42,086 nt of DNA. Origin: Alistipes sp. (GTDB lineage: Bacteria; Bacteroidota; Bacteroidia; Bacteroidales; Rikenellaceae). Of this stretch, positions 5,388 to 39,670 are shown in pieces. The DNA lies in NCBI GenBank assembly GCA_017629145.1, contig JAGBXR010000001.1:1-42086 (forward strand), read 5' to 3'. Position numbers and translations under genes: made by a program. The notes beneath the pieces are model-generated. The model worked only from the letters and a program-made list of their open reading frames with translations, searched no databases and was not told the origin of the DNA. Positions within the stretch are counted from its first letter, which is position 1. Every line of letters begins with the position of its first letter.

Positions 5388-6551
5388 TCACCCGTTGAAG
5401 AAGCTCTTCATACGCTCGAGAATGCTCTGATTCTCGGGCTCGGCAGCGCGCTTGAAGTGAGGCTGCTCGGCGAGCTGCTCGATAATCTTGCGCTCCTCCT
5501 TGGTGAGCTCATCCGGGATGGTGATATCGACAATCACGGTAATATCGCCACGGCCATAGCCATTAACATTTGGAAGACCCTTGCCTCGGAGGCGCAGAAT
5601 CTTACCTGCGTGTGTACCTGGAGCAATCTTGATACGTGCACGACCGTCGATTGTAGGCACCTCAACCTCGCCACCGAGGATTGCTGTGGTTACGGTGATG
5701 TTAAGCTGGTGTACCAAGTCGTCGCCATCGCGCACTAACTGTGGATTGCGCTCCTCCTCGATTACAACCAACAAGTCGCCATTCTGACCACCATTGCGCG
5801 CTGCATTTCCCTTGCCACGCACCGTAATAGCCATACCCTCGGCAACACCTGCTGGAATCTTTACCTCGACAATCTCCGAGCCTCGCTCCGTACCCTCGCC
5901 GCCGCACTTATCGCACTTCGCCGTAATGACACGTCCCGATCCGCCGCACGTAGGACACACGGTCTGGGCCTGCATACGTCCGAAGAAGGAGTTCTGAACG
6001 GTGATAACATATCCCGAGCCGTTACACTGCGAACAAGTAGAGTACGACGATGCATCCTTTGCACCCGAGCCACCACACTTGTCGCAAGCTACAACCTTAT
6101 TAATCTTGAGCTTCTTGGTAACACCCTCTGCAATCTCCTGAAGAGTGAGGCGAACCGTTACGCGTATATCGCTACCACGATTTACGCGTGGACCACGGCT
6201 GCGCGAGCTTCCACCAAAGCCTCCAAAAGCACCGCCAAAGATATCACCGAACTGCTCGAAGATATCCTCCATTGAGAAGCCACCTCCCGAGAAGCCACCA
6301 AAGCCACCACCACCGGTAGCTCCGCCCATACCAGCGTGACCGAATCGGTCGTAGCGAGCACGCTTCTCCTCGTTTGACAACACATCGTAGGCCTCAGCAG
6401 CCTCCTTAAACTTATCCTCGGCCTCCTTGTCTCCTGGGTTCTTATCGGGGTGATATTTGATGGCCGCCTTACGGTAGGCCTTCTTTATGGTATCGGCATC
6501 GGCGTTGCGCTCAACACCTAACACCTCGTAGTAATCTCTCTTCTCTGCCAT
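5388..6551 (-). CDS. dnaJ: Molecular chaperone DnaJ
   Basis: This is a full-length type I DnaJ (387 residues). The J domain carries the HPD tripeptide in YHPDKNPGD, which stimulates DnaK ATP hydrolysis. A Gly/Phe-rich segment follows (about 75-120). Then come four CxxCxGxG zinc motifs: [24 protein letters not shown] and CDKCGGEG. The C-terminal substrate-binding domains are complete. It lies 34 bp downstream of grpE on the same strand; dnaK is not in the window. No CIRCE-type operator is seen at the grpE-dnaJ boundary. Confidence 0.98.
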
Positions 6552-32093: not shown

Positions 32094-34127
32094 TTACTTC
32101 TTAACACTCTTACGAACACACTTACGCTTTGGCTTCTCCTCGCTCTGTGCCTCGCTCTTCGCGGTCTTCTTGGCACACGCCTTGCGCGCTGGCTTCTTGA
32201 GCTCATAAGATTCAATAAACTCGTTGATCTGGAGCAAACCAGCCACAGATGTAGCGTGTGACACCGAGCCACGTGGATTGTGTGGAGGATCACCCTCGAA
32301 ACGCTCCGAGATAGAGCCTACACACTTGGTCTGAAGCTCTGCATCGAAGCCGTCGAGAATATTGCGAGCATCGCTCACGAACTTCTCGCCACCGATAGCA
32401 AAGCAAGCCTTGACATAGAATACGAGTGGAGCAACCCACGCTGAACCGTTACGCGATGCGAGATCCTGCGAACGCTGATCCTCGTTGTAGTTCGACTTGT
32501 AGAGCATATTGCGTGGCGAAAGCGTACGCAAACCACGAGGCGTGAGCAAGTGCTCTCTGGCTGTCTGCAATACACGCACACGCTTCTCCTCGTCGAGCAT
32601 TGTGTAGTCCAGACCTGCAGCCATAACCATATTTGGACGAATGAACTTATTTGTCTCATCGGCATTTACATAGTCTGCAAGGTAGCCCTCCTCCTCGAGC
32701 CAGAACTTCGAGATAAATGATGCCTGTGTCTTGGCTGGCATATCCTTCCACTCCTTCGCAAACTCCTTGTCGCCCTGCTTCTTTGCCAAAGCCAGGGTGT
32801 AGCTCACAGCGTTGTACCACAATGCCTGAAGCTCAACGGGGTAGCCGCGACGTGGTGTCACAGGAGCACCGTCGACGATAGTACCCATCCACGTGAGTGG
32901 ACGCTCTGCAGCAGCCCAAATAAGACCATTGTCGTGGAGCTTAACCTCCTCGCCGTGGCCACGACGATATGCCTCGAGAATGCTCTTCATAACCTCGCCA
33001 TATTTAGCCCAAAGCTCCTTGGCGCCGATATGCTTCTCAAGATTCTGCATAGTATAGAAGAACCACAATGGTGCATCTGCCGCAACACGTGCCGAGCCGC
33101 TACCTGCGAAGTCACCATCCTTCATATCACCGACCAACGTGTCGAGCGCATCGATGCAATCCTCCTTATAGCCCTGTGTGAGTGTAAGACCTGGCAAGGC
33201 AATGAACGTATCGCGTGTAAGAGGACCAAACCAAGGATAGCCTGCGATAACCTCTGTACGATTCTCGGGGCGGCGAATGACGAACTGACGTGCCGAGTGG
33301 CGCAAGCAGCTCAAGAAATCGATCTTATGTGTACGACGTGCCAAAGATGCGTCGTATACAGCAGTGATAGTCTCGGGTGAAGCCATCAAGTCGGTAGCAG
33401 CAGAGAAGATTACGCTCTCGCCCTTTTTAATCTTGAACTCGAAATAGCCCGTAGTGAGCAGATCCTCGTGACCCTCGTAGCCACGTGCAAGCTCCTTGTG
33501 ATACTCGAAGTTGTAGTACCAGTCTGGAGCTGGAATAAACTCTGCCTCCTCCTTATTCAGCTGCATATACAACCAGGGGAAGCCATCATAGAGCTTACAC
33601 TTGACACCATAAGGTACTGGATATGCACGACCATCTGCCTCCATATTTGCCTTCGACAGCGAGTGCTTGTCGCGGAAGGCAAGCAATGGACGAAGACGCA
33701 ATGTTGTCTCCGAGTGTGCATCGACAAGTGTGTAACGAATCATAAGCTGTGTACGCTTGTGAATCCACAACAACTCTTTGCGTAGTATCACTCCACCTAC
33801 ACGATATGTTATCGTGGGCGTTGGCGTGTACTCAAAGTCGGTGATATACTTGTGACCGCGAGGCTCATAAGTACCATTAAAGCGGTGTAACGCAAGGTTG
33901 AATGATTGGTCGTGCTGGATGACAGTCTCATCGAGCGACGAAAGTAGCACATAGGTACGATCGCTTTGGTCGATAGGTGCGACCATCAGACCGTGGTATT
34001 TGCGCGTGTTGCAACCAACGATTGTTGTACTCATATAGCCACCACGACGATCCGTGGCAAGCACCTCTCTGTCGAGCGAGTACTCCAAGTTACCCAATTC
34101 ACGCTTGTCGAATGTAAGTCCTGACAT
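32094..34127 (-). CDS. Glycogen debranching enzyme (amylo-alpha-1,6-glucosidase type)
   Basis: The 677-residue product has the N-terminal GDE domain (LATDRRGGYMSTTIVGCNTRKYHGL in the first 50 residues) and a C-terminal (alpha/alpha)6 amylo-1,6-glucosidase domain with WFGPLTRDTFIALPGL and DADAPLWF-like strands. It is cytoplasmic. Its role is removal of branch points from stored glucan. The last about 30 residues form a Lys/Arg/Ala-rich tail (two KKxA-type repeats), which is unusual and may bind anionic polymer (inference). It is the first gene of the minus-strand glucan operon; no exact promoter match is seen upstream, only TTACTTTG at 34260-34253. Confidence 0.94.
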   Translation of the reverse strand: MSGLTFDKRELGNLEYSLDREVLATDRRGGYMSTTIVGCNTRKYHGLMVAPIDQSDRTYVLLSSLDETVIQHDQSFNLALHRFNGTYEPRGHKYITDFEYTPTPTITYRVGGVILRKELLWIHKRTQLMIRYTLVDAHSETTLRLRPLLAFRDKHSLSKANMEADGRAYPVPYGVKCKLYDGFPWLYMQLNKEEAEFIPAPDWYYNFEYHKELARGYEGHEDLLTTGYFEFKIKKGESVIFSAATDLMASPETITAVYDASLARRTHKIDFLSCLRHSARQFVIRRPENRTEVIAGYPWFGPLTRDTFIALPGLTLTQGYKEDCIDALDTLVGDMKDGDFAGSGSARVAADAPLWFFYTMQNLEKHIGAKELWAKYGEVMKSILEAYRRGHGEEVKLHDNGLIWAAAERPLTWMGTIVDGAPVTPRRGYPVELQALWYNAVSYTLALAKKQGDKEFAKEWKDMPAKTQASFISKFWLEEEGYLADYVNADETNKFIRPNMVMAAGLDYTMLDEEKRVRVLQTAREHLLTPRGLRTLSPRNMLYKSNYNEDQRSQDLASRNGSAWVAPLVFYVKACFAIGGEKFVSDARNILDGFDAELQTKCVGSISERFEGDPPHNPRGSVSHATSVAGLLQINEFIESYELKKPARKACAKKTAKSEAQSEEKPKRKCVRKSVKK

Positions 34128-34511
34128 AATCTACTTGGTCTTTATAGTTTAATATTTCAATTCAATATATGACCTCACACACCCTAATATGCTATGAATC
34201 TGCACAATATGGCCAGCACTTCGGGTGTACGAACAGAAAATATGGTGTTTTACAAAGTAAAGTTACGAACTATTTTTTGAATTTGCAAAAAATATTAGCA
34301 AAACAAACCTTATTTCATATTTACCTCATATCTCACTAATGCTGTGCAACTTGACTATTGGACCAAAACCCAAAAACAAATACTCCAAAAAGATCAAACC
34401 ACCACGCACACAATAATCCGAACACTCGCTGCGTTATATTGGCACGAGTATTGTAATAAATTCGTATAGCTGCGGATCTAATACGCAGTTAGGTTTCTTC
34501 ATTTATTTAAG
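34128..34511. other. AT-rich intergenic region with a hairpin at 34429-34488
   Basis: No gene is supported. A hairpin with CTGCGT (34429-34434) and ACGCAG (34483-34488) arms and an inner imperfect ACGA/TTCGT stem lies just before the first repeat element. A weak minus-strand -7 box (TTACTTTG) at 34253-34260 could serve the debranching-enzyme operon. Confidence 0.5.
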
Positions 34512-34635
34512 TTTGGGTTAGTAGTTTACAGAACTTGTTTCTGGAACGCAGGGAGCCGTCGTGAGACGCCTCCCTGTTGTTTTTATGTTCTGTAAACTTC
34601 TGACTGCTCCCGCGGTGTGGCAGAGTTGTCTGCGA
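34512..34635 (+). repeat. Structured intergenic repeat, unit copy R1a
   Basis: These 124 bases are identical to 35621-35744. Outer arms AGTTTACAGAAC (34523-34534) and GTTCTGTAAACT (34587-34598) enclose a 12-bp hairpin (34549-34560 with 34565-34576) with one central C-C mismatch and GTGA loop, then a T run. A second small hairpin, GCAGA-GTTG-TCTGC, lies at 34620-34633. No ORF is supported. Confidence 0.92.
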
Positions 34636-34640
34636 GTGCT

Positions 34641-34761
34641 GTATGATGGTTTGGCGTGTTGCTATGCAACAAATGTGGTTGCGTAGCTGGTCATATAGTG
34701 AGCAAGCTCTCCTAGACCAACTACACAACCACACTCCTTCGTCGTCGCCAAACCATCATAC
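34641..34761. repeat. Variable multi-helix fold following R1a
   Basis: GTATGATGGTTTGGCG (34641-34656) pairs perfectly with 34746-34761 (16 bp). Inside lie a TTGC-TAT-GCAA hairpin (34657-34671) and an 18-base stem (34675-34692 with 34715-34732) with two C-A mismatches, capped by GAGC-AA-GCTC (34700-34709). The sequence differs from other copies, but the layout is kept. The two C-A pairs become G-U on the minus strand, which hints at a minus-strand RNA. Confidence 0.75.
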
Positions 34762-34776
34762 CTACTCTTGCTCTGC

Positions 34777-34890
34777 TCAAACCTTAAGGAGAGTTAGTAG
34801 TTTGTTAGCGGCGCTTCGCAATTGAGTATTTATATAGAATTTGTTTCTGGAACATAGGCGGCAGTCGTGAGACTCCCGCCTATTTATTTT
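34777..34890 (+). repeat. Structured intergenic repeat, unit copy R1b
   Basis: Starts with a 31-bp sequence (34777-34807) also found at 35878-35908 and 36977-37007, continues with a short insert and the AGAATTTGTTTCTGG motif, then a 13-bp hairpin (34854-34866 with 34871-34883), again with a single C-C mismatch at the same place and a GTGA loop, followed by a T run. It overlaps the 3' end of the lipoprotein gene by four bases. Confidence 0.88.
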
Positions 34891-35275
34891 TTCTCAATGT
34901 TACAACATCACCATAGCGACTACCTATTAATACTATTTGTTCCGCTGATATGCTTTGGACAATATATAACGCTGTATGATAAATGCCTTCATAGCTGCTA
35001 CTACTTTTTGTAATAGTTAATGCTAATGTATTCTGGCTTTTATTATATGAATATGTTCCTGAATCATGGAAAGGGACGGCTCCAGCTCCAGTAGCACCTT
35101 CATTATAATATATGGTAATAGATCCTCCTTTGGTAAATACCCATCTATTATAATAGCTTTCATACCAGGTGCCAACAAATGATGATTGTTTATACGCACC
35201 TTCATCTTTCTCACACGATGTGAATATGCAACACCCCATAATTGCCATTAATACACACAGTAAAATCTTTTTCAT
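34880..35275 (-). CDS. Lipocalin-like lipoprotein
   Basis: The 131-residue product has a lipoprotein signal (MKKILLCVLMAIMGCCIFTS, mature Cys21). The core shows the small lipocalin-like pattern of Bacteroidetes: FVGTWYESYYNRWVFT, SGTYSYNKSQNTLALTIT and a final QIVLIGS strand. The role is unknown; such proteins often bind lipophilic ligands, but that is not shown here. The gene is AT-richer than the glucan operon next to it and is bounded by repeat elements R1 and R2, so it looks like a mobile or cassette-borne gene (inference). Confidence 0.78.
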   Translation of the reverse strand: MKKILLCVLMAIMGCCIFTSCEKDEGAYKQSSFVGTWYESYYNRWVFTKGGSITIYYNEGATGAGAVPFHDSGTYSYNKSQNTLALTITKSSSSYEGIYHTALYIVQSISAEQIVLIGSRYGDVVTLRKNK

Positions 35276-35287
35276 AATAGTTTGATA

Positions 35288-35340
35288 TTTAAGTTAAACA
35301 ATAAGTGTCGTTGCCGCAGATAGCAACCGTTTAACTTAAA
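35288..35340 (-). promoter_or_regulatory. Hairpin in the leader of the lipocalin-like gene
   Basis: Perfect 12-bp arms TTTAAGTTAAAC (35288-35299) and GTTTAACTTAAA (35329-35340), with an inner GTTGC/GCAAC stem (35310-35314, 35323-35327), lie directly before the start codon. It may be a regulatory leader structure. Confidence 0.55.
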
Positions 35341-35383
35341 ATCAGGAGAATACCTAAAAAAGAAACGTGGGTAATGCTTATCG

Positions 35384-35495
35384 GAAGAAGGGACGACCAA
35401 GTACCCATACGAACATAAGCACACCCACGCCATAGGGCGTGGGCATTTAATGTGCCTATTGTCTGTTCGTTTAATAATTTTGGTCGTTTTACTTC
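35384..35495. repeat. Long nested imperfect hairpin between the lipocalin-like gene and repeat R2
   Basis: Successive pairs are GAAG/CTTC (35384-35387, 35492-35495), ACGACCAA/TTGGTCGT (35393-35400, 35480-35487), ACGAACA/TGTTCGT (35409-35415, 35464-35470), GCACA/TGTGC (35419-35423, 35451-35455) and CCCACGCC-ATAG-GGCGTGGG (35424-35443). This is a 112-nt rod with five helices. No ORF is supported. Confidence 0.8.
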
Positions 35496-35620
35496 ACGAA
35501 ACAATAGCCCTAAATGCCATCTATAAACACTGCGTATTTCGCAATGTTACTACAAATATACAAAAGTATTTCCGAAAAACAAAAAATTACACAAGAGTTA
35601 TACATTAAGGTTATTAATGC

Positions 35621-35744
35621 TTTGGGTTAGTAGTTTACAGAACTTGTTTCTGGAACGCAGGGAGCCGTCGTGAGACGCCTCCCTGTTGTTTTTATGTTCT
35701 GTAAACTTCTGACTGCTCCCGCGGTGTGGCAGAGTTGTCTGCGA
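35621..35744 (+). repeat. Structured intergenic repeat, unit copy R2a
   Basis: It is a perfect duplicate of R1a (34512-34635), including the hairpin with GTGA loop and the GCAGA-GTTG-TCTGC hairpin. Perfect identity over 124 bp suggests a recent duplication or strong selection. Confidence 0.95.
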
Positions 35745-35748
35745 TATT

Positions 35749-35861
35749 AGCGATTTGGCGTATTGCTTTGCAATAGTTAGGGTTGCGCCATTGGTTGTAT
35801 TTGTGAGCAAGCTCCCACACACCAATAACGCAACCCTACGACAAGTCGCTGCCAAATCACT
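35749..35861. repeat. Variable multi-helix fold following R2a
   Basis: Arms GATTTGGC (35752-35759) and GCCAAATC (35851-35858) form the closing stem, extended outward with one C-A mismatch. Inside are TTGC-TTT-GCAA (35763-35773) and a stem 35779-35795 with 35821-35837 containing two adjacent C-A mismatches, capped by GAGC-AA-GCTC (35805-35814). It has the same plan as the fold after R1a with mostly different sequence. Confidence 0.75.
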
Positions 35862-35865
35862 CAAT

Positions 35866-35948
35866 CTCTTGCTCTGCTCAAACCTTAAGGAGAGTTAGTA
35901 GTTTGTTAGTGGTGCTTCGCAATTGATTATTTATATAGAATTTGTTTC
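35866..35948 (+). repeat. Structured intergenic repeat, truncated copy R2b
   Basis: It carries the CTTGCTCTGC box and the 31-bp sequence (35878-35908), followed by the same insert as R1b (GCTTCGCAATTGA) and AGAATTTGTTTC, but the hairpin is missing; the Fic gene end lies 25 bp on. Confidence 0.85.
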
Positions 35949-35973
35949 ATTTAACATTTTTTATGAATGGCTG

Positions 35974-36861
35974 TTAGTATCTCACCTTAAAATAGTCTAG
36001 CACCGCTTTGTAGTTGTCTTGTGCAGCCAAGCAGGTGTCGAGAAGATAGCCTCGGATATTGTTCCACTCCCGCAAACCGCGATAGTAGAACATTTTGAGT
36101 TCCTCGGTGATGATGAACGGCACATAACCATTCGCCAAACACTCCTTAAACATCACAAGACGACCGACACGACCATTGCCATCCTGGAATGGGTGTATTG
36201 ACTCGAATAGCTGGTGCAGGTCTATAATATCCTCAAACGACTTCTGCTTCTTGCCGTTGTACTCTTTGAGGAGGGTTTGCATCTCACGATGCACATCTTC
36301 GGGTGCAGTGGTTTCGTTACCACCTACCTCGTTAGGTAGGCGTTTATAGTCGCCAATGGTAAACCAATCCTTACGACTATCTGAAGTGCCAGACTTGAGG
36401 ATGAGGTGTAGTTCCTTGATAAGGCTCTCGGTAAGTCGTTCCTCTGCTCGGTCAATTATAAGGTCGATGCATCGGAAGTGATTTGTCGTCTCGATGATAT
36501 CATCTACACGAATACTCTCGCCCTCAATACCTATGGTGTTGGTCTCGAAGATATAGCGTGTCTGGTCGTGCGTTAGGCGGCTGCCTTCAATGTGGTTGGA
36601 GTTGTAGGTAAGGTCAATTTGCGTCTTGTGATAGATACCACCTTTGAGCCTCGCTTCCTTCTCTTGGCGCAGAACAACGAGCAGTGGCATCGCCTTACGC
36701 TGGCGAGGTTTTCTACCAGGAAGCTCCGCCTCGGCAGGAATGTTCCAAGTCTTACCCACGAGGGTTGCACCCTCAATCTTTCCGAGGGAGCAGTAATTAC
36801 GCGCTGTGCGCTCCGAAATGCCAAATTTTGAGGCAAATTCTGCAACTGAAATATACTTCAT
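35974..36861 (-). CDS. Class II Fic family protein with N-terminal helix-turn-helix
   Basis: The 295-residue protein has an N-terminal DNA-binding segment (residues 1-45, helix-turn-helix with RTARNYC). An inhibitory motif SNHIEG (88-93) fits [S/T]xxxE[G/N]; in class II Fic proteins this Glu blocks the ATP gamma-phosphate site. The catalytic motif HPFQDGNGRVGR (223-234) is complete. Fic proteins transfer AMP or a related nucleotide to target hydroxyls. The target is unknown. No separate antitoxin gene is present, as expected for class II. The operator palindromes over its promoter suggest autoregulation (inference). It lies between repeats R2 and R3. Confidence 0.93.
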   Translation of the reverse strand: MKYISVAEFASKFGISERTARNYCSLGKIEGATLVGKTWNIPAEAELPGRKPRQRKAMPLLVVLRQEKEARLKGGIYHKTQIDLTYNSNHIEGSRLTHDQTRYIFETNTIGIEGESIRVDDIIETTNHFRCIDLIIDRAEERLTESLIKELHLILKSGTSDSRKDWFTIGDYKRLPNEVGGNETTAPEDVHREMQTLLKEYNGKKQKSFEDIIDLHQLFESIHPFQDGNGRVGRLVMFKECLANGYVPFIITEELKMFYYRGLREWNNIRGYLLDTCLAAQDNYKAVLDYFKVRY

Positions 36862-36871
36862 ACGCTACGAC

Positions 36872-36933
36872 TATCGGCAAGTTTTAGGCCGATTTTCTGT
36901 GCAAATATAGCGATTCTTGCCGATAACGGCAAA
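36872..36933 (-). promoter_or_regulatory. Fic promoter with palindromic operator
   Basis: On the minus strand TTTG (36933-36930), a 20-bp spacer and TATATTTG (36909-36902) give a full promoter. TTGCCG-ATAA-CGGCAA (36917-36932) overlaps the -33 element, and ATCGGC (36873-36878) with GCCGAT (36888-36893) lies in the leader. TATCGGCAAG (36872-36881) is the exact inverted partner of CTTGCCGATA (36916-36925). Autoregulation by the helix-turn-helix is the likely reading. Confidence 0.72.
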
Positions 36934-36976
36934 TTATCCGCATATATTCTATTATTCATTTACCTTTTTACCTCCA

Positions 36977-37094
36977 TCAAACCTTAAGGAGAGTTAGTAG
37001 TTTGTTAAAGGTGTTCCGCTTGCGCTACACATAAGTAGTTTACAGAAATTGTTTCTGTAAAGAGGATAGGCGGCAGCTGTGAAGCTCCCGCCTA
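36977..37094 (+). repeat. Structured intergenic repeat, unit copy R3
   Basis: The 31-bp sequence (36977-37007) is followed by a perfect 10-bp hairpin, TTTACAGAAA-TTG-TTTCTGTAAA (37039-37061). A 12-bp hairpin (37067-37078 with 37083-37094) then repeats the C-C mismatch and GTGA loop with a different stem sequence. T-rich sequence follows. Confidence 0.88.
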
Positions 37095-37148
37095 ATTCTT
37101 TGTTTATTGATCCTTTAATAAAAACTACTGACGGTTTTGAACGTGGCA

Positions 37149-37273
37149 ACAATGCGTGTACCGACGAGTGCAAGCACTCATCAACAGAGCAATGGCGAGA
37201 GAATTTAGTGAACAAACTCACAATCCATCGCCATCGCTCTATTGTTGCTATGCAACTATTGTCCTCGCATTGT
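37149..37273. repeat. Variable multi-helix fold following R3
   Basis: Closing arms ACAATGCG (37149-37156) and CGCATTGT (37266-37273) hold GAGTGC-AA-GCACTC (37166-37179), a stem AGAGC-A-ATGGCG with CGCCAT-C-GCTCT (37186-37197, 37229-37240; one A-C mismatch, U-G on the minus strand), and GTTGC-TAT-GCAAC (37244-37256). The last hairpin is the same as in R1. Confidence 0.72.
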
Positions 37274-37311
37274 CTGACCTACTCGTGGAAACGTTAGTTG
37301 TTTGCCAATAT

Positions 37312-37365
37312 TCTCAAAGTTCACTAAGTTCATTAAATTCTCTAAACTCACTAATTTCCTAGAAA
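37312..37365 (+). repeat. 9-bp-period imperfect tandem repeat
   Basis: Six units of the type TCNYTAANN (for example TCACTAAGT, TCATTAAAT, TCTCTAAAC, TCACTAATT) follow each other without gap. The same unit recurs in inverted orientation at 38534-38587. Confidence 0.8.
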
Positions 37366-37410
37366 TCCTTGCTTAACTGAAAAACTTTGTTTAATTTTGT
37401 GTTGTCGAGG

Positions 37411-37456
37411 GTCTGCTCTCGGCAGACATATTTATTAGTGAAAGTGTTTCGCTAAT
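37411..37456. repeat. Two adjacent hairpins before the multi-branched fold
   Basis: GTCTGC-TCTCG-GCAGAC (37411-37427) is perfect. ATTAGTGAAA (37434-37443) pairs with TTTCGCTAAT (37447-37456) around a three-base loop with one T-G pair. Both lie upstream of the larger structure that starts at 37460. Confidence 0.65.
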
Positions 37457-37459
37457 CCT

Positions 37460-37617
37460 TAAAGAAAAAATTTGGCGATTTTAGACGAAAGGATAACGAA
37501 TGCTTACATCACTTGTATTGGTATGCTTCGTCGGCACGTTCTGTGCCTACTCCACATACTGTACAGGTGTGGAGTATTGTTTATTTTCGTCGAGGCCACG
37601 CCAAATGCCTTTCTTTA
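37460..37617. ncRNA. Candidate structured RNA: four-way junction element
   Basis: Three successive closing helices pair TAAAGAAA (37460-37467) with 37610-37617, TTTGGCG (37471-37477) with CGCCAAA (37599-37605) and GACGAAA (37484-37490) with TTTCGTC (37585-37591). Inside are three hairpins: ACGAA-GC stem (37496-37531), GGCAC-GTTCT-GTGCC (37533-37547) and TACTCCACA with TGTGGAGTA (37548-37576). TTTGGCG/CGCCAAA is shared with the R1 fold. It ends 81 bp before the zinc-motif gene. I do not recognise a named RNA family. Whether the transcript is plus or minus is not settled. Confidence 0.55.
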
Positions 37618-37698
37618 GATAAACGGACATCTCCACACTTTCTTTATTTATATTAATCCCGTTATCGGAGGTGGGGCGGAAACAAACATTTATTAATT

Positions 37699-38136
37699 AT
37701 GAAAAAGTTATTTTTACTTTTAACATTATGTGCCATTTGTACTACGAGTGTCTACCCTAAAAATGTAATGATTGATAGTCAACAAAACTATGTTACACAA
37801 GCTTGTGCTTATTGTAGTGGAACGGGAGTCATTTTTATGGGCTATAATTACTATGGACAGCCAGTATATCAAGCTTGTGCGAACTGTGGAGGCAAGGGTT
37901 ATGTTGTAATTTCCACCTCTTCAAACGTGTCTTTTCAAGGCTCAAATAGTGATGGTTATATCTACGATGGTTATATAGTACTAAAAAGAGTTGCATCTGA
38001 CAAAAGAGATAAATTCTATAAATACAGAAAAATGGGATCAATATATGCGTCTCCAGATGGAAAAAATTTTTATAAATATTCAGGAGAAAGAACCCTTACA
38101 ATTGGAAGTATAAAATATGAAGGCGGAAGTTACTAA
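37699..38136 (+). CDS. Small secreted protein with two DnaJ-type zinc motifs
   Basis: The 145-residue product has a signal peptide (MKKLFLLLTLCAICTTSVYP, about 20 residues) and two CxxCxGxG motifs: CAYCSGTG (36-43) and CANCGGKG (60-67), the half-site pattern of the DnaJ zinc finger. The remaining 75 residues are Ser/Tyr/Gly-rich and not recognised. Four cysteines can hold one zinc. Export of such a domain is unusual; a role in redox or protein folding in the periplasm is speculative. The gene is very AT-rich compared with the operons around, which suggests transfer. It lies between the R3-associated fold and R4. Confidence 0.82.
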   Translation: MKKLFLLLTLCAICTTSVYPKNVMIDSQQNYVTQACAYCSGTGVIFMGYNYYGQPVYQACANCGGKGYVVISTSSNVSFQGSNSDGYIYDGYIVLKRVASDKRDKFYKYRKMGSIYASPDGKNFYKYSGERTLTIGSIKYEGGSY

Positions 38137-38338
38137 TATATACAACTAATTTACATTTTGCAGAACTGTTAACCTACTATTAATATTAGAATATTGTGGG
38201 CACAAAAGCTTAGAGATACCAAATGTCCCAACATAAATATCTGGATAATCATCTATAGTAGCATTTTTGCAGTATTGTCAACACTTTGCTAGCATAAATA
38301 TCAATTTGATTAGTTTACAATTATATGTTTACAACCCT

Positions 38339-38422
38339 TGGGTTAGTGGTTTACAGAACTTGTTTCTGGAACGCAGGGAGCCGTCGCGAGACGCCTCCCT
38401 GTTGTTTTTATGTTCTGTAAAC
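38339..38422 (+). repeat. Structured intergenic repeat, unit copy R4
   Basis: The same unit as R1a, with outer arms GTTTACAGAAC (38349-38359) and GTTCTGTAAAC (38412-38422) and the hairpin 38374-38385 with 38390-38401. The loop is GCGA instead of GTGA, which keeps the GNRA pattern. It differs from R1a at a few positions only. Confidence 0.92.
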
Positions 38423-38466
38423 TCCTGACGATTCGGTGGCGGCTCGGATGACTTATCTTGTATAGC

Positions 38467-38509
38467 GTGTGGCGCAGATGCTCCGCATCAATTGTGTCTG
38501 CTTTGCCAC
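38467..38509. repeat. Variable hairpin following R4
   Basis: GTGGC (38469-38473) pairs with GCCAC (38505-38509), CAGA (38475-38478) with TCTG (38497-38500), and GATGC-TCC-GCATC (38477-38489) is an alternative inner hairpin. The frame of the GTGTGGC-CAGA...TCTGC box of R1a is kept while the loop is longer. Confidence 0.6.
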
Positions 38510-38533
38510 CAAGCATTTCATATAATTCTTAAT

Positions 38534-38645
38534 GTTTAGATAATTTAGGGAAATTAAGGAATTTAATGAATTTAGGGAGTATAAGGCATCTAACGAAAAA
38601 TATCTAATCTCACTAAATTCCCTATACTCCTTAATCTCATTACAC
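38534..38645. repeat. Inverted pair of 9-bp-period repeat arrays
   Basis: Units of type ATTTAGGGA run at 38534-38587 (six units). Units of the reverse type (TCACTAAAT, TCCTTAATC) run at 38601-38645 (five units). The two arrays can fold back on each other around a 13-base loop. The unit is the same as at 37312-37365. Confidence 0.75.
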
Positions 38646-38659
38646 AAAACAATACCTAT

Positions 38660-38711
38660 GGTGTGGCAGAGTTGTCTGCAAGTTATGAAGCGAGGGCATA
38701 TTGCTATGCAA
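38660..38711 (+). repeat. Extra copy of the GTGTGGCAGA module
   Basis: GGTGTGGCAGAGTTGTCTGC (38660-38679) is identical to 34614-34633, and TTGC-TAT-GCAA at 38701-38711 repeats the inner hairpin of the R1 fold. The parts are from the same element but separated from R4 by the 9-bp arrays. Confidence 0.8.
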
Positions 38712-38833
38712 TGCAAAAAGTTTAGAGAACTTATTGTTAATGTATAGGAAGTGCTGTAAACTAAAGCCCCCCCTATCTTATCTTCCCTTAACTACCTATA
38801 TCTCTCCTGTACGCATTATGAGAAGCAACAAAA

Positions 38834-38865
38834 ATAGGCGGAAGTATTTTTTAACTACCGCCTAT
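38834..38865 (-). terminator. Terminator of the outer-membrane protein gene
   Basis: ATAGGCGG (38834-38841) pairs with CCGCCTAT (38858-38865), plus an inner AGT/ACT step; on the minus strand it ends in TTTTT. It lies 38 bp after the stop codon. Confidence 0.8.
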
Positions 38866-38902
38866 AAGCTATAATATCTATATCTGCAAAAATCGAGACC
38901 CT

Positions 38903-39670
38903 CTACTTACCGAAGCGGAAACCGAGGTTTACATAACCCATATTTACTGGGAATCCGTACTCGACAAGAGCGTTATATCCAATGCCCACGTTAAAGCGCT
39001 TATACTCGATACCAGCACCTACACGACAGTGGAAGCCTGTCTCACCAGATAAGTCACCAATACCTACGAAAGCTCCCAACGAACACTCCAAATAGGGGTT
39101 AACCGCAAATTTTTTAGTCAAGTAACCCTTAAGATTTACACCCAATGGGATATAACCAACGAATAAAATCTCGGAATACTCCCCCCAATCATCATCACCA
39201 TAATAATAATCACCTTGATAATCATAATAATATTTCTCCAATAATGAGTGGAAACCGACTTCTATACCAGCATAAAGGTGATCAAAGAGGAATACGCCAG
39301 CCGAAACGTCCAATGTAGGGCCTGCCATTTCAGACAAAAATATTGTACCTACTGATGTATAGCCTCTGAATGCAACAGGCAACGAAGATGAGGCATTATT
39401 ACGATGCTCACCAACCCTTGCTCTGGTTTCAGGCACTGCATTCATCAAGTCCTTCTCGCCATTTTCATACTTGATATAGAAAATTTGCGATTTGCTGATT
39501 GTATAAGTTGGACCGTCAAGATTACTCCAACGCTTATAAGTTACCTGGTCTTGAGTGATAGATGTAACCTTTGCCATAACTTCATCAGCGTTGCGCATAA
39601 CTATAATATCCTGCGCTTTGGCAGCATAGGACGCCAAGAATAAAATGGCGAATAAAATTAGTCTTTTCAT
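38903..39670 (-). CDS. Outer-membrane beta-barrel protein
   Basis: The 255-residue product has a signal peptide (MKRLILFAILFLASYAAKA, cleavage before QD) and a short N-terminal domain (DIIVMRNADEVMAKVTSI, then YKRWSNLDGP), as in many Bacteroidetes outer-membrane proteins. Alternating hydrophobic strands follow, ending in LGFRFGK, where Phe near the C-terminus serves barrel assembly. The loop at about 160-175 is very rich in Tyr and Asp (YYYDYQGDYYYGDDDW). Start ATG at 39670; a long upstream extension is excluded because the promoter lies there. The role is unknown. Confidence 0.85.
   Translation of the reverse strand: MKRLILFAILFLASYAAKAQDIIVMRNADEVMAKVTSITQDQVTYKRWSNLDGPTYTISKSQIFYIKYENGEKDLMNAVPETRARVGEHRNNASSSLPVAFRGYTSVGTIFLSEMAGPTLDVSAGVFLFDHLYAGIEVGFHSLLEKYYYDYQGDYYYGDDDWGEYSEILFVGYIPLGVNLKGYLTKKFAVNPYLECSLGAFVGIGDLSGETGFHCRVGAGIEYKRFNVGIGYNALVEYGFPVNMGYVNLGFRFGK

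Follow-up and report, generated by a model that had tools for sequence, protein, structure and literature searches.

The window analysed here is a 42,086-nt stretch of an Alistipes sp. genome (contig JAGBXR010000001.1), in which three small genes lie between repeats of one family. Our comparisons identify these repeats as copies of the 3' half of a small RNA (sRNA) gene of Alistipes and relatives, a gene newly recognised here. The 3' end of this Rikenellaceae sRNA gene is probably a hot spot of integration, used by elements with a tyrosine-type integrase, and this reading is well supported. Duplicated 3' ends delimiting gene segments are the usual mark of integration at the 3' ends of RNA genes; in the window an intact target gene is accompanied by a displaced 3' fragment in the same orientation. 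The reading gains a mechanism because the 3' half recurs in viral contigs and a related integrase lies in the array of a relative (genome G136). We file the segments of the window as relatives of the integrative elements that target RNA genes, rather than as full members, because no integrase is on board.

The window is contig C5 of the host genome assembly (1.62 Mb, 49 contigs, 76% complete). An earlier note on this DNA had listed repeats at six places (34512, 34777, 35621, 35866, 36977, 38339) in one orientation, and all of them are present. The 124-nt unit at 34512 is 100% identical to the copy at 35621; the copy at 38337 matches it with 77% over 124 nt and 97% over 92 nt, and the family members at 34777, 35878, and 36977 show 91-95% identity to the family reference over 43 nt. 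Within the host genome all repeat matches fall into the window locus except one partial copy (C13:653-692), and an exact 27-nt match was obtained in four named contigs, all of them metagenome-assembled genomes of Alistipes. The region 34512-34640 folds 5.2 and the region 34640-34775 folds 8.4 standard deviations better than shuffled sequences. The first repeat copy differs from the others in being the end of a gene. The repeat unit was correctly seen in the earlier note, but it went unrecognised there as the 3' half of an sRNA gene that is conserved, as did similar arrays behind transfer RNA (tRNA) and transfer-messenger RNA (tmRNA) genes. A 31-bp repeat described there likewise exists, but is in fact the foot of a separate covarying hairpin (termed V). 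Core sites within the window (Table 1) are more numerous than that note gave.

From 5' to 3', the sRNA gene comprises TTGGCACGAGTATTGTA, a short hairpin, GGTTTCTTCATTTATTTAAGTTTGGGTTAGTAG, a second hairpin, and a U-tract terminator. We collected 88 loci, a sample in part fetched for matching the repeat. Comparison with the sigma54 promoter consensus revealed a -24/-12-like box (TGG[CTA]A-N6..8-TTG[CT]) ahead of the core at 80 of 88 loci vs 0 of 88 shuffled ones (one shuffle each), and the sRNA may be transcribed from a sigma54 promoter. In the alignment, evaluated by eye, the hairpins vary in sequence and keep their form, and the strand carrying promoter and terminator (top strand) folds better in 82 of 88 loci. 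A 36-nt core probe (up to 3 mismatches) matched 146 of 180 genomes of the genus, usually in one copy, and 63 of the 70 with at least 90% completeness and at most 5% contamination. The 33-nt core was detected in 160 of 200 genomes of the family, covering 19 of 22 genera and mostly with 0 mismatches in the listed part. On the level of the order, a 28-nt probe matched 3 of 295 genomes, all three from Rikenellaceae, and none of the 292 genomes of the other families.

A known RNA family was rejected, as Rfam gave no match at gathering score for the sRNA: two matches in window positions 33500-39000 both stayed below this score, and in five relative loci only tRNA and tmRNA reached it. Titles and abstract openings in the literature searched held no report of such an RNA. 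The bottom strand of the core (34492-34524) reads AAATAAATGAAGAAACC, resembling a start-codon context. Complementarity of at least 10 nt between core and gene starts was found for 22 of 1464 genes vs 5 and 8 in two controls, and at least 4, probably 5, of these 22 are the sRNA locus read backwards; we do not claim pairing of the core with ATG AAG AAA starts as a seed on this weak enrichment. In genome G054 (locus L143), two full sRNA genes, only one of them with V, stand 15 kb from each other and flank an apparent Sus-type/sigma-factor operon (gene names assigned by eye). This stretch was rejected as an island, with no match to either of our two recombinase queries between the genes.

The 3' half also occurs in viral sequences. 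Two IMG/VR contigs, L334 and L335, carry the sRNA 3' half without the 5' half, directly upstream of a gene for a 426-aa integrase. The block common to both contigs and the window starts with TTAAGTTTGGGTTAGTAG and continues into the 3' half. These contigs thereby represent a free element with target-matching sequence, and the viral copy is likely a phage attachment site (attP), which may be a working one. The integrase matches the Pfam domains Phage_int_SAM_5 and Arm-DNA-bind_5 as well as a PHROG integrase, and a repressor-like gene adjoins its gene (PHROGs). Locus L187 of G136 contains the viral hairpin as well, together with an integrase that shares 87% identity over 391 aa with the viral one, 424 nt from the sRNA core. 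A Xer-type recombinase gene adjoins the sRNA gene in three further loci, directly after it in L166 and L180 and behind a 1.6-kb insert in L179. A 16-mer of the core matched 14 stretches in viral contigs, of which those in L333, L334, and L335 clearly extend past the 16-mer and the rest appear chance-like. L333, a 48-kb viral contig, holds a full-length sRNA variant whose first hairpin is a different one and whose 28-nt core is exact (5588-5615, minus strand). Among the viral contigs, relatives of the L334/L335 integrase were confined to the same two contigs, and a single INPHARED match (26% of the query, E 0.3) was judged to be chance.

We propose that phages and small elements, using a tyrosine-type integrase, bring along their own version of the sRNA 3' half, consisting of core site, hairpin 2, and terminator. 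Integration at GGGTTAGTAG would restore the sRNA, because the element brings its own 3' half, and would shift the old 3'-end copy to the far side. At least two such integrations may have shaped the window, leaving segments in tandem between three 3'-half copies: segment 1 (~34517-35625) would comprise the first hairpin (V1) and a lipoprotein gene, and segment 2 (~35626-38341) the hairpins V2/V3, a Fic gene, and a gene for a zinc-motif protein. The segments may have been moved by an integrase supplied in trans or since lost, possibly with help from V. A similar case is known from other bacteria, in which phages attach within sRNA genes and their integration restores the 3' end of the sRNA, as proposed here; the Rikenellaceae differ in the sRNA concerned, in the tandem gene-carrying segments, and in the V hairpins.

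The arrangement is consistent with this mechanism. The three 3'-half copies can be read as the attL, attL/attR, and attR sites of two elements in tandem (1.1 and 2.7 kb), although the element end is only partly conserved. This possible end, E1 (TTATACATTAAGGTTATTAATGCTTTGG), also precedes the core in relatives, being identical in L189 and differing by 1 mismatch in L219, by 6 each in L059 and L054, and by 10 in L045; E1 copies not followed by an intact core occur in L045 (1 mismatch) and, weaker, in L175 and L079. A second core site at +250 to +345 was present in 51 of the 88 sRNA loci with enough sequence, including one (L064) later removed from the V set because its second core resembled coding sequence. 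The remaining 37 loci showed no second core there; 6 of these reach the scores of extended loci (at least 12), and some of the 6 run out at a contig edge.

Genes behind the sRNA change from relative to relative. Among 89 sRNA loci, 62 of them with at least 5 kb downstream, the lipoprotein gene and the zinc-motif gene were each found once, in the window only. The Fic gene was present in full length at six loci and as a 26-aa fragment in L187, with one more in L047, a contig whose sRNA was not included. Flanking genes differ widely. In L055 and L067 the flanking sequences match as far as the terminator and then once more behind the arrays, which differ between the two loci, and the 1.6 kb at the terminator of L179 are absent from L180 and L166. 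As judged by eye, this insertion carries another lipoprotein-like gene with the same noncoding 5' module (M1) as the window's. The earlier note had taken constancy of all three genes in relatives as the outcome at odds with cassettes; what we observed is turnover. Its proposal of a hot spot or repeat-bounded island is supported, based on one duplicated site, genes between the repeats that differ in relatives, replacement or insertion directly after the terminator in orthologous loci, the repeat beside an integrase gene in two viral contigs (likely attP), and a close relative of that integrase in one relative's array. The resemblance to integron cassettes suggested alongside it is not supported, as no integron integrase (IntI) exceeded the cut-off in 121 genus genomes and none of 50 cores was canonical.

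Similar arrays follow other RNA genes. In 96 tRNA and tmRNA genes from the fetched loci, some of them orthologues, exact repeats of at least 11 nt were detected downstream of 20 vs upstream of 2 with the same query. A block starts at G53 or T54 in the T-loop in 12 of these 20 genes, accounting for 15 of 52 blocks (12 and 3, respectively) vs 1 of 4 upstream blocks, and many later blocks are continuations of one repeat that runs on into the trailer. Downstream of 10 of the 96 genes lies a 14-nt T-arm copy (up to 1 mismatch), vs 1 upstream and 0 in shuffled sequences; six of the ten cases come from the genome of the window, in which 30 tRNAs were detected. In other genomes, scattered copies of the hairpin foot start 64-77 nt behind a tRNA gene in 7 of the 8 cases for which a tRNA was called (337 nt in the eighth), and such copies also follow tmRNA. 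GTT begins both the sRNA core and 12 of the 15 T-loop blocks.

Several points weigh against the hot spot or against parts of its mechanism. No integrase is seen in the array of the window. The viral integrase has no match to the Pfam catalytic-domain model PF00589, and the L334 and L335 proteins are identical and count as one case. The recombinase scan of 89 loci rests on two queries only, the viral-type one yielding a single match (L187) and the Xer-type one six, none of them L187, where a 36-nt linker between core site and viral hairpin is left unexplained by plain integration. The supposed element end is well conserved in L189 and L219 only, and the second end in the window (E2) differs from E1 at 14 of 28 positions. 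Eight of the 20 tRNA/tmRNA genes have no block beginning at the T-loop boundary, and the recurrent neighbourhood of the Fic gene may be partly old synteny. The far end of the L179 insertion holds TTAGTAG but no 3'-half copy; this insertion therefore fits the hot spot better than a strict attachment-site scheme. In addition, the relatives' genomes behind these comparisons are mostly in many contigs.

The hairpin V, about 180-240 nt long with its cores (50 units), invites a different explanation. In integron-like cassettes, V would be an attC-like site recombined as folded bottom strand, the 3' ends of RNA genes would act as attI, and some non-IntI tyrosine recombinase would perform the exchange at G^TT. 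On paper V does resemble a recombination hairpin: it forms a variable palindrome between inverse cores behind sRNA, tRNA, and tmRNA genes, and GTT stands at the start of the core and of most T-loop blocks. Covariation among 34 bottom-strand sequences scored 0.482 vs 0.161 for shuffled and at most 0.138 for slid alignments, 36 of 50 pairs showing Watson-Crick types that differ on both sides (37 counting wobble pairs). The bottom strand is the more stable one in 46 of 50 sRNA units with RNA parameters and in 49 with DNA parameters, and in a strand-neutral structure G.T exceeds A.C by 79 to 29. A single-base bulge occupies a fixed place on one side, making one extrahelical base, not two. Between L154 and L169, the sRNA is 96% and the terminator 98% identical, but V only 70% with different feet, lying between identical immediate flanks.

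Nevertheless, integron-like cassettes are an unlikely explanation. IntI above cut-off (TIGR02249) was found in 0 of the 121 genus genomes, the 7-mer core is never GTTRRRY (0 of 50 V-linked sRNA cores), and two exact V motifs were absent from the viral contigs searched. V also exceeds the 57-141 bp given for attC in PMC3053210. The strand preference is mixed away from the sRNA (bottom strand favoured in 6 of 14 tRNA/tmRNA units; in another set 7 of 8 and 4 of 10), and an untrimmed V window showed no asymmetry (29 of 52). After trimming, the bottom strand was favoured in 36 of 43; this dropped 13 of 56 candidates without recognised right arm and kept one (L068) that is probably false. A non-integron cassette system is a tentative idea to which we likewise assign a low probability: RNA-gene 3' ends would serve as platforms, V as a strand-biased recombination site with GTT crossover, and a host or phage non-IntI tyrosine recombinase would swap hairpins and small cargo.

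Tandem duplication, in which replication slippage or template switching at hairpins would have multiplied the sRNA tail and caught genes by chance, appears quite unlikely. The DNA is rich in hairpins, full sRNA duplicates occur (G054), and an inverse copy of the adjacent arm (r) is matched genome by genome, as expected from template switching: r scores 9.8 on average against its complement in the same genome, compared with 6.1 after swaps between genomes and 5.8 in loci that lack a second core site. However, the repeat boundaries converge on one base in different tRNA and tmRNA genes, and the same 3' half adjoins an integrase gene in viral contigs. Alternatively, V could be a domain of one large structured RNA extending the sRNA, with the genes as bystanders. 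Its strong covariation and the second core site at +250 to +345 in 51 of 88 loci (L064 included) agree with this, but V favours the strand opposite to the sRNA, which itself favours its own strand, and V also follows tRNA and tmRNA genes past their terminators; we regard this as very unlikely. Mobile hairpins of the REP/RAYT or IS200/IS605 type are largely refuted and highly improbable: the elements are hairpins, and GTAG, which marks one REP super-family (PMC3733652), is present in their sRNA-type cores, but tRNA-type cores (GTTCGA) lack it and a Y1 transposase was found in 1 of 101 genus genomes, which is not the window's. A replication origin or terminus was rejected, as the skew does not switch at the array in any of 5 long contigs; array orientation is weakly related to skew (25 of 37 extended loci and 25 of 34 simple ones are on the C-rich strand), and no replication link is claimed.

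Returning to integration at RNA-gene 3' ends, the closest known counterparts include the tRNA/tmRNA islands of Islander, a database with a 2-kb floor and with the T-loop among the known subsites (PMC4383910). Both share an intact RNA gene with a displaced 3' fragment in the same orientation, tandem arrays, an integrase (here in related viral contigs), and, at tRNA/tmRNA genes, the T-loop boundary. Unlike in these islands, the target here is an sRNA for which our literature searches gave no report, the segments measure 0.2-2.7 kb, lack an integrase, and in many cases fall below the floor, and an inverse copy and the long hairpin V stand beside the fragment. Integron attC sites, as described in PMC3053210, are variable palindromes with extrahelical bases and bottom-strand recognition. 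Similar here are a variable palindrome flanked by inverse cores, a GTT in the core, a bias towards the bottom strand at the sRNA, single orientation, fixed array site, and small cargo genes; IntI and a GTTRRRY core are absent, the hairpin is longer, and an RNA-gene 3' end replaces attI. REP elements resemble V in being palindromic and intergenic and in the GTAG of one core type, but measure 20-40 bp compared with about 200 nt for V, which is tied to RNA-gene 3' ends in a genome without Y1 transposase (PMC3733652). All window features are compiled in Table 1. Besides integron cassette arrays, integrase-less attC clusters are a further system for comparison.

Table 1. Features of the sRNA locus and its array, in window coordinates
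Feature	Position	Strand	Basis
sigma54-like -24/-12 promoter TTGGCACGAGTATTGTA	34439..34455	+	sequence; box pattern counts over 88 loci
sRNA hairpin 1 (CTGCG...CGCAG)	34470..34488	+	from sequence; varying-loop hairpin in 88-locus alignment, by eye
33-nt nearly invariant single-stranded sRNA core	34492..34524	+	probe searches of genus, family, order genomes
Core site R1 (GTTAGTAGTTT), within sRNA; likely attB/attL	34517..34527	+	core-site search; inside block common to viral contigs L334/L335
sRNA hairpin 2 and intrinsic terminator	34527..34586	+	fold
r, inverse copy of R1/hairpin-2 arm (GTTCTGTAAACTTCTGAC)	34587..34604	+	within-genome complement match
V1, long variable hairpin	34605..34792	.	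covariation
Core site R2	34793..34803	+	core-site search
Linker and second terminator-type hairpin (3'-half relic)	34804..34892	+	58-nt repeat family, 78% to first copy
131-aa lipoprotein-like gene, segment 1 cargo	34880..35275	-	open reading frame; signal sequence by eye
M1, noncoding 5' module before lipoprotein gene	35276..35600	-	in 34/61 genus genomes
E1, 28-bp stretch adjoining core site, possible element end	35598..35625	+	comparison with relatives
Second sRNA 3'-half copy, read as attR1/attL2; core site 35626	35621..35744	+	124 nt, 100% identical to 34512-34635
V2 hairpin	35745..35893	.	fold z -3.8; part of covariation alignment
Core site R3	35894..35904	+	core-site search
Fic-domain gene, segment 2 cargo	35974..36861	-	PF02661 1.9e-16; PADLOC PDC-S04 9.7e-113
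Right foot of decayed V and core site 36993	36978..37003	+	repeat comparison, core-site search
Further 3'-half relic with terminator-type hairpin	37034..37130	+	repeat comparison
V3, hairpin-like, ends in core variant GTTAGTTG (37293)	37131..37300	.	from sequence, by likeness to class units
M2, noncoding 5' module before zinc-motif gene	37400..37698	+	in 51/61 genus genomes, up to 14 matches per genome
145-aa CXXCXGXG-type zinc-motif protein gene, segment 2 cargo	37699..38136	+	PF00684 2.6e-4, below cut-off
E2, stretch adjoining core site, uncertain relative of E1	38314..38341	+	ends ACAACCCTTGG as in L045 and L054
Third sRNA 3'-half copy, read as attR2; core variant GTTAGTGG at 38342	38337..38429	+	97% over 92 nt
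V4 and V left-arm relic (38660-38712)	38430..38712	.	repeat comparison

The three cargo genes reported earlier exist as open reading frames, and two of them are indeed richer in AT (G+C 0.34 for the lipoprotein and 0.33 for the zinc-motif gene, compared with 0.48 for Fic and 0.50 for the rest of the window). The label "lipocalin" for the 131-aa protein could not be retained, with nothing above cut-off in Pfam and NCBIfam. For the Fic gene, PADLOC gave a strong match to PDC-S04, a candidate defence family. M1 and M2 (~300 bp) look like mobile 5' leaders: they mostly end at or a few nt from the start codon of unrelated genes, an open reading frame following at 56 of 60 loci and falling into 38 clusters. 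M1 matches lie about 2.5 kb or less from the sRNA in at least 8 genomes. Two AT-rich, minisatellite-like stretches (37321-37357 and 38542-38578) are inverted relative to each other, with 78% complementarity over 37 nt.

Taken together, the Rikenellaceae possess a family-wide, almost invariant sRNA with a sigma54-type promoter and without an Rfam match at gathering score. Its tail is an apparent docking hot spot for phages and, in a genus common in the gut, a place of turnover for lipoprotein genes and a candidate defence gene. If V is a recombination site, folded-strand recombination would not be limited to integrons.

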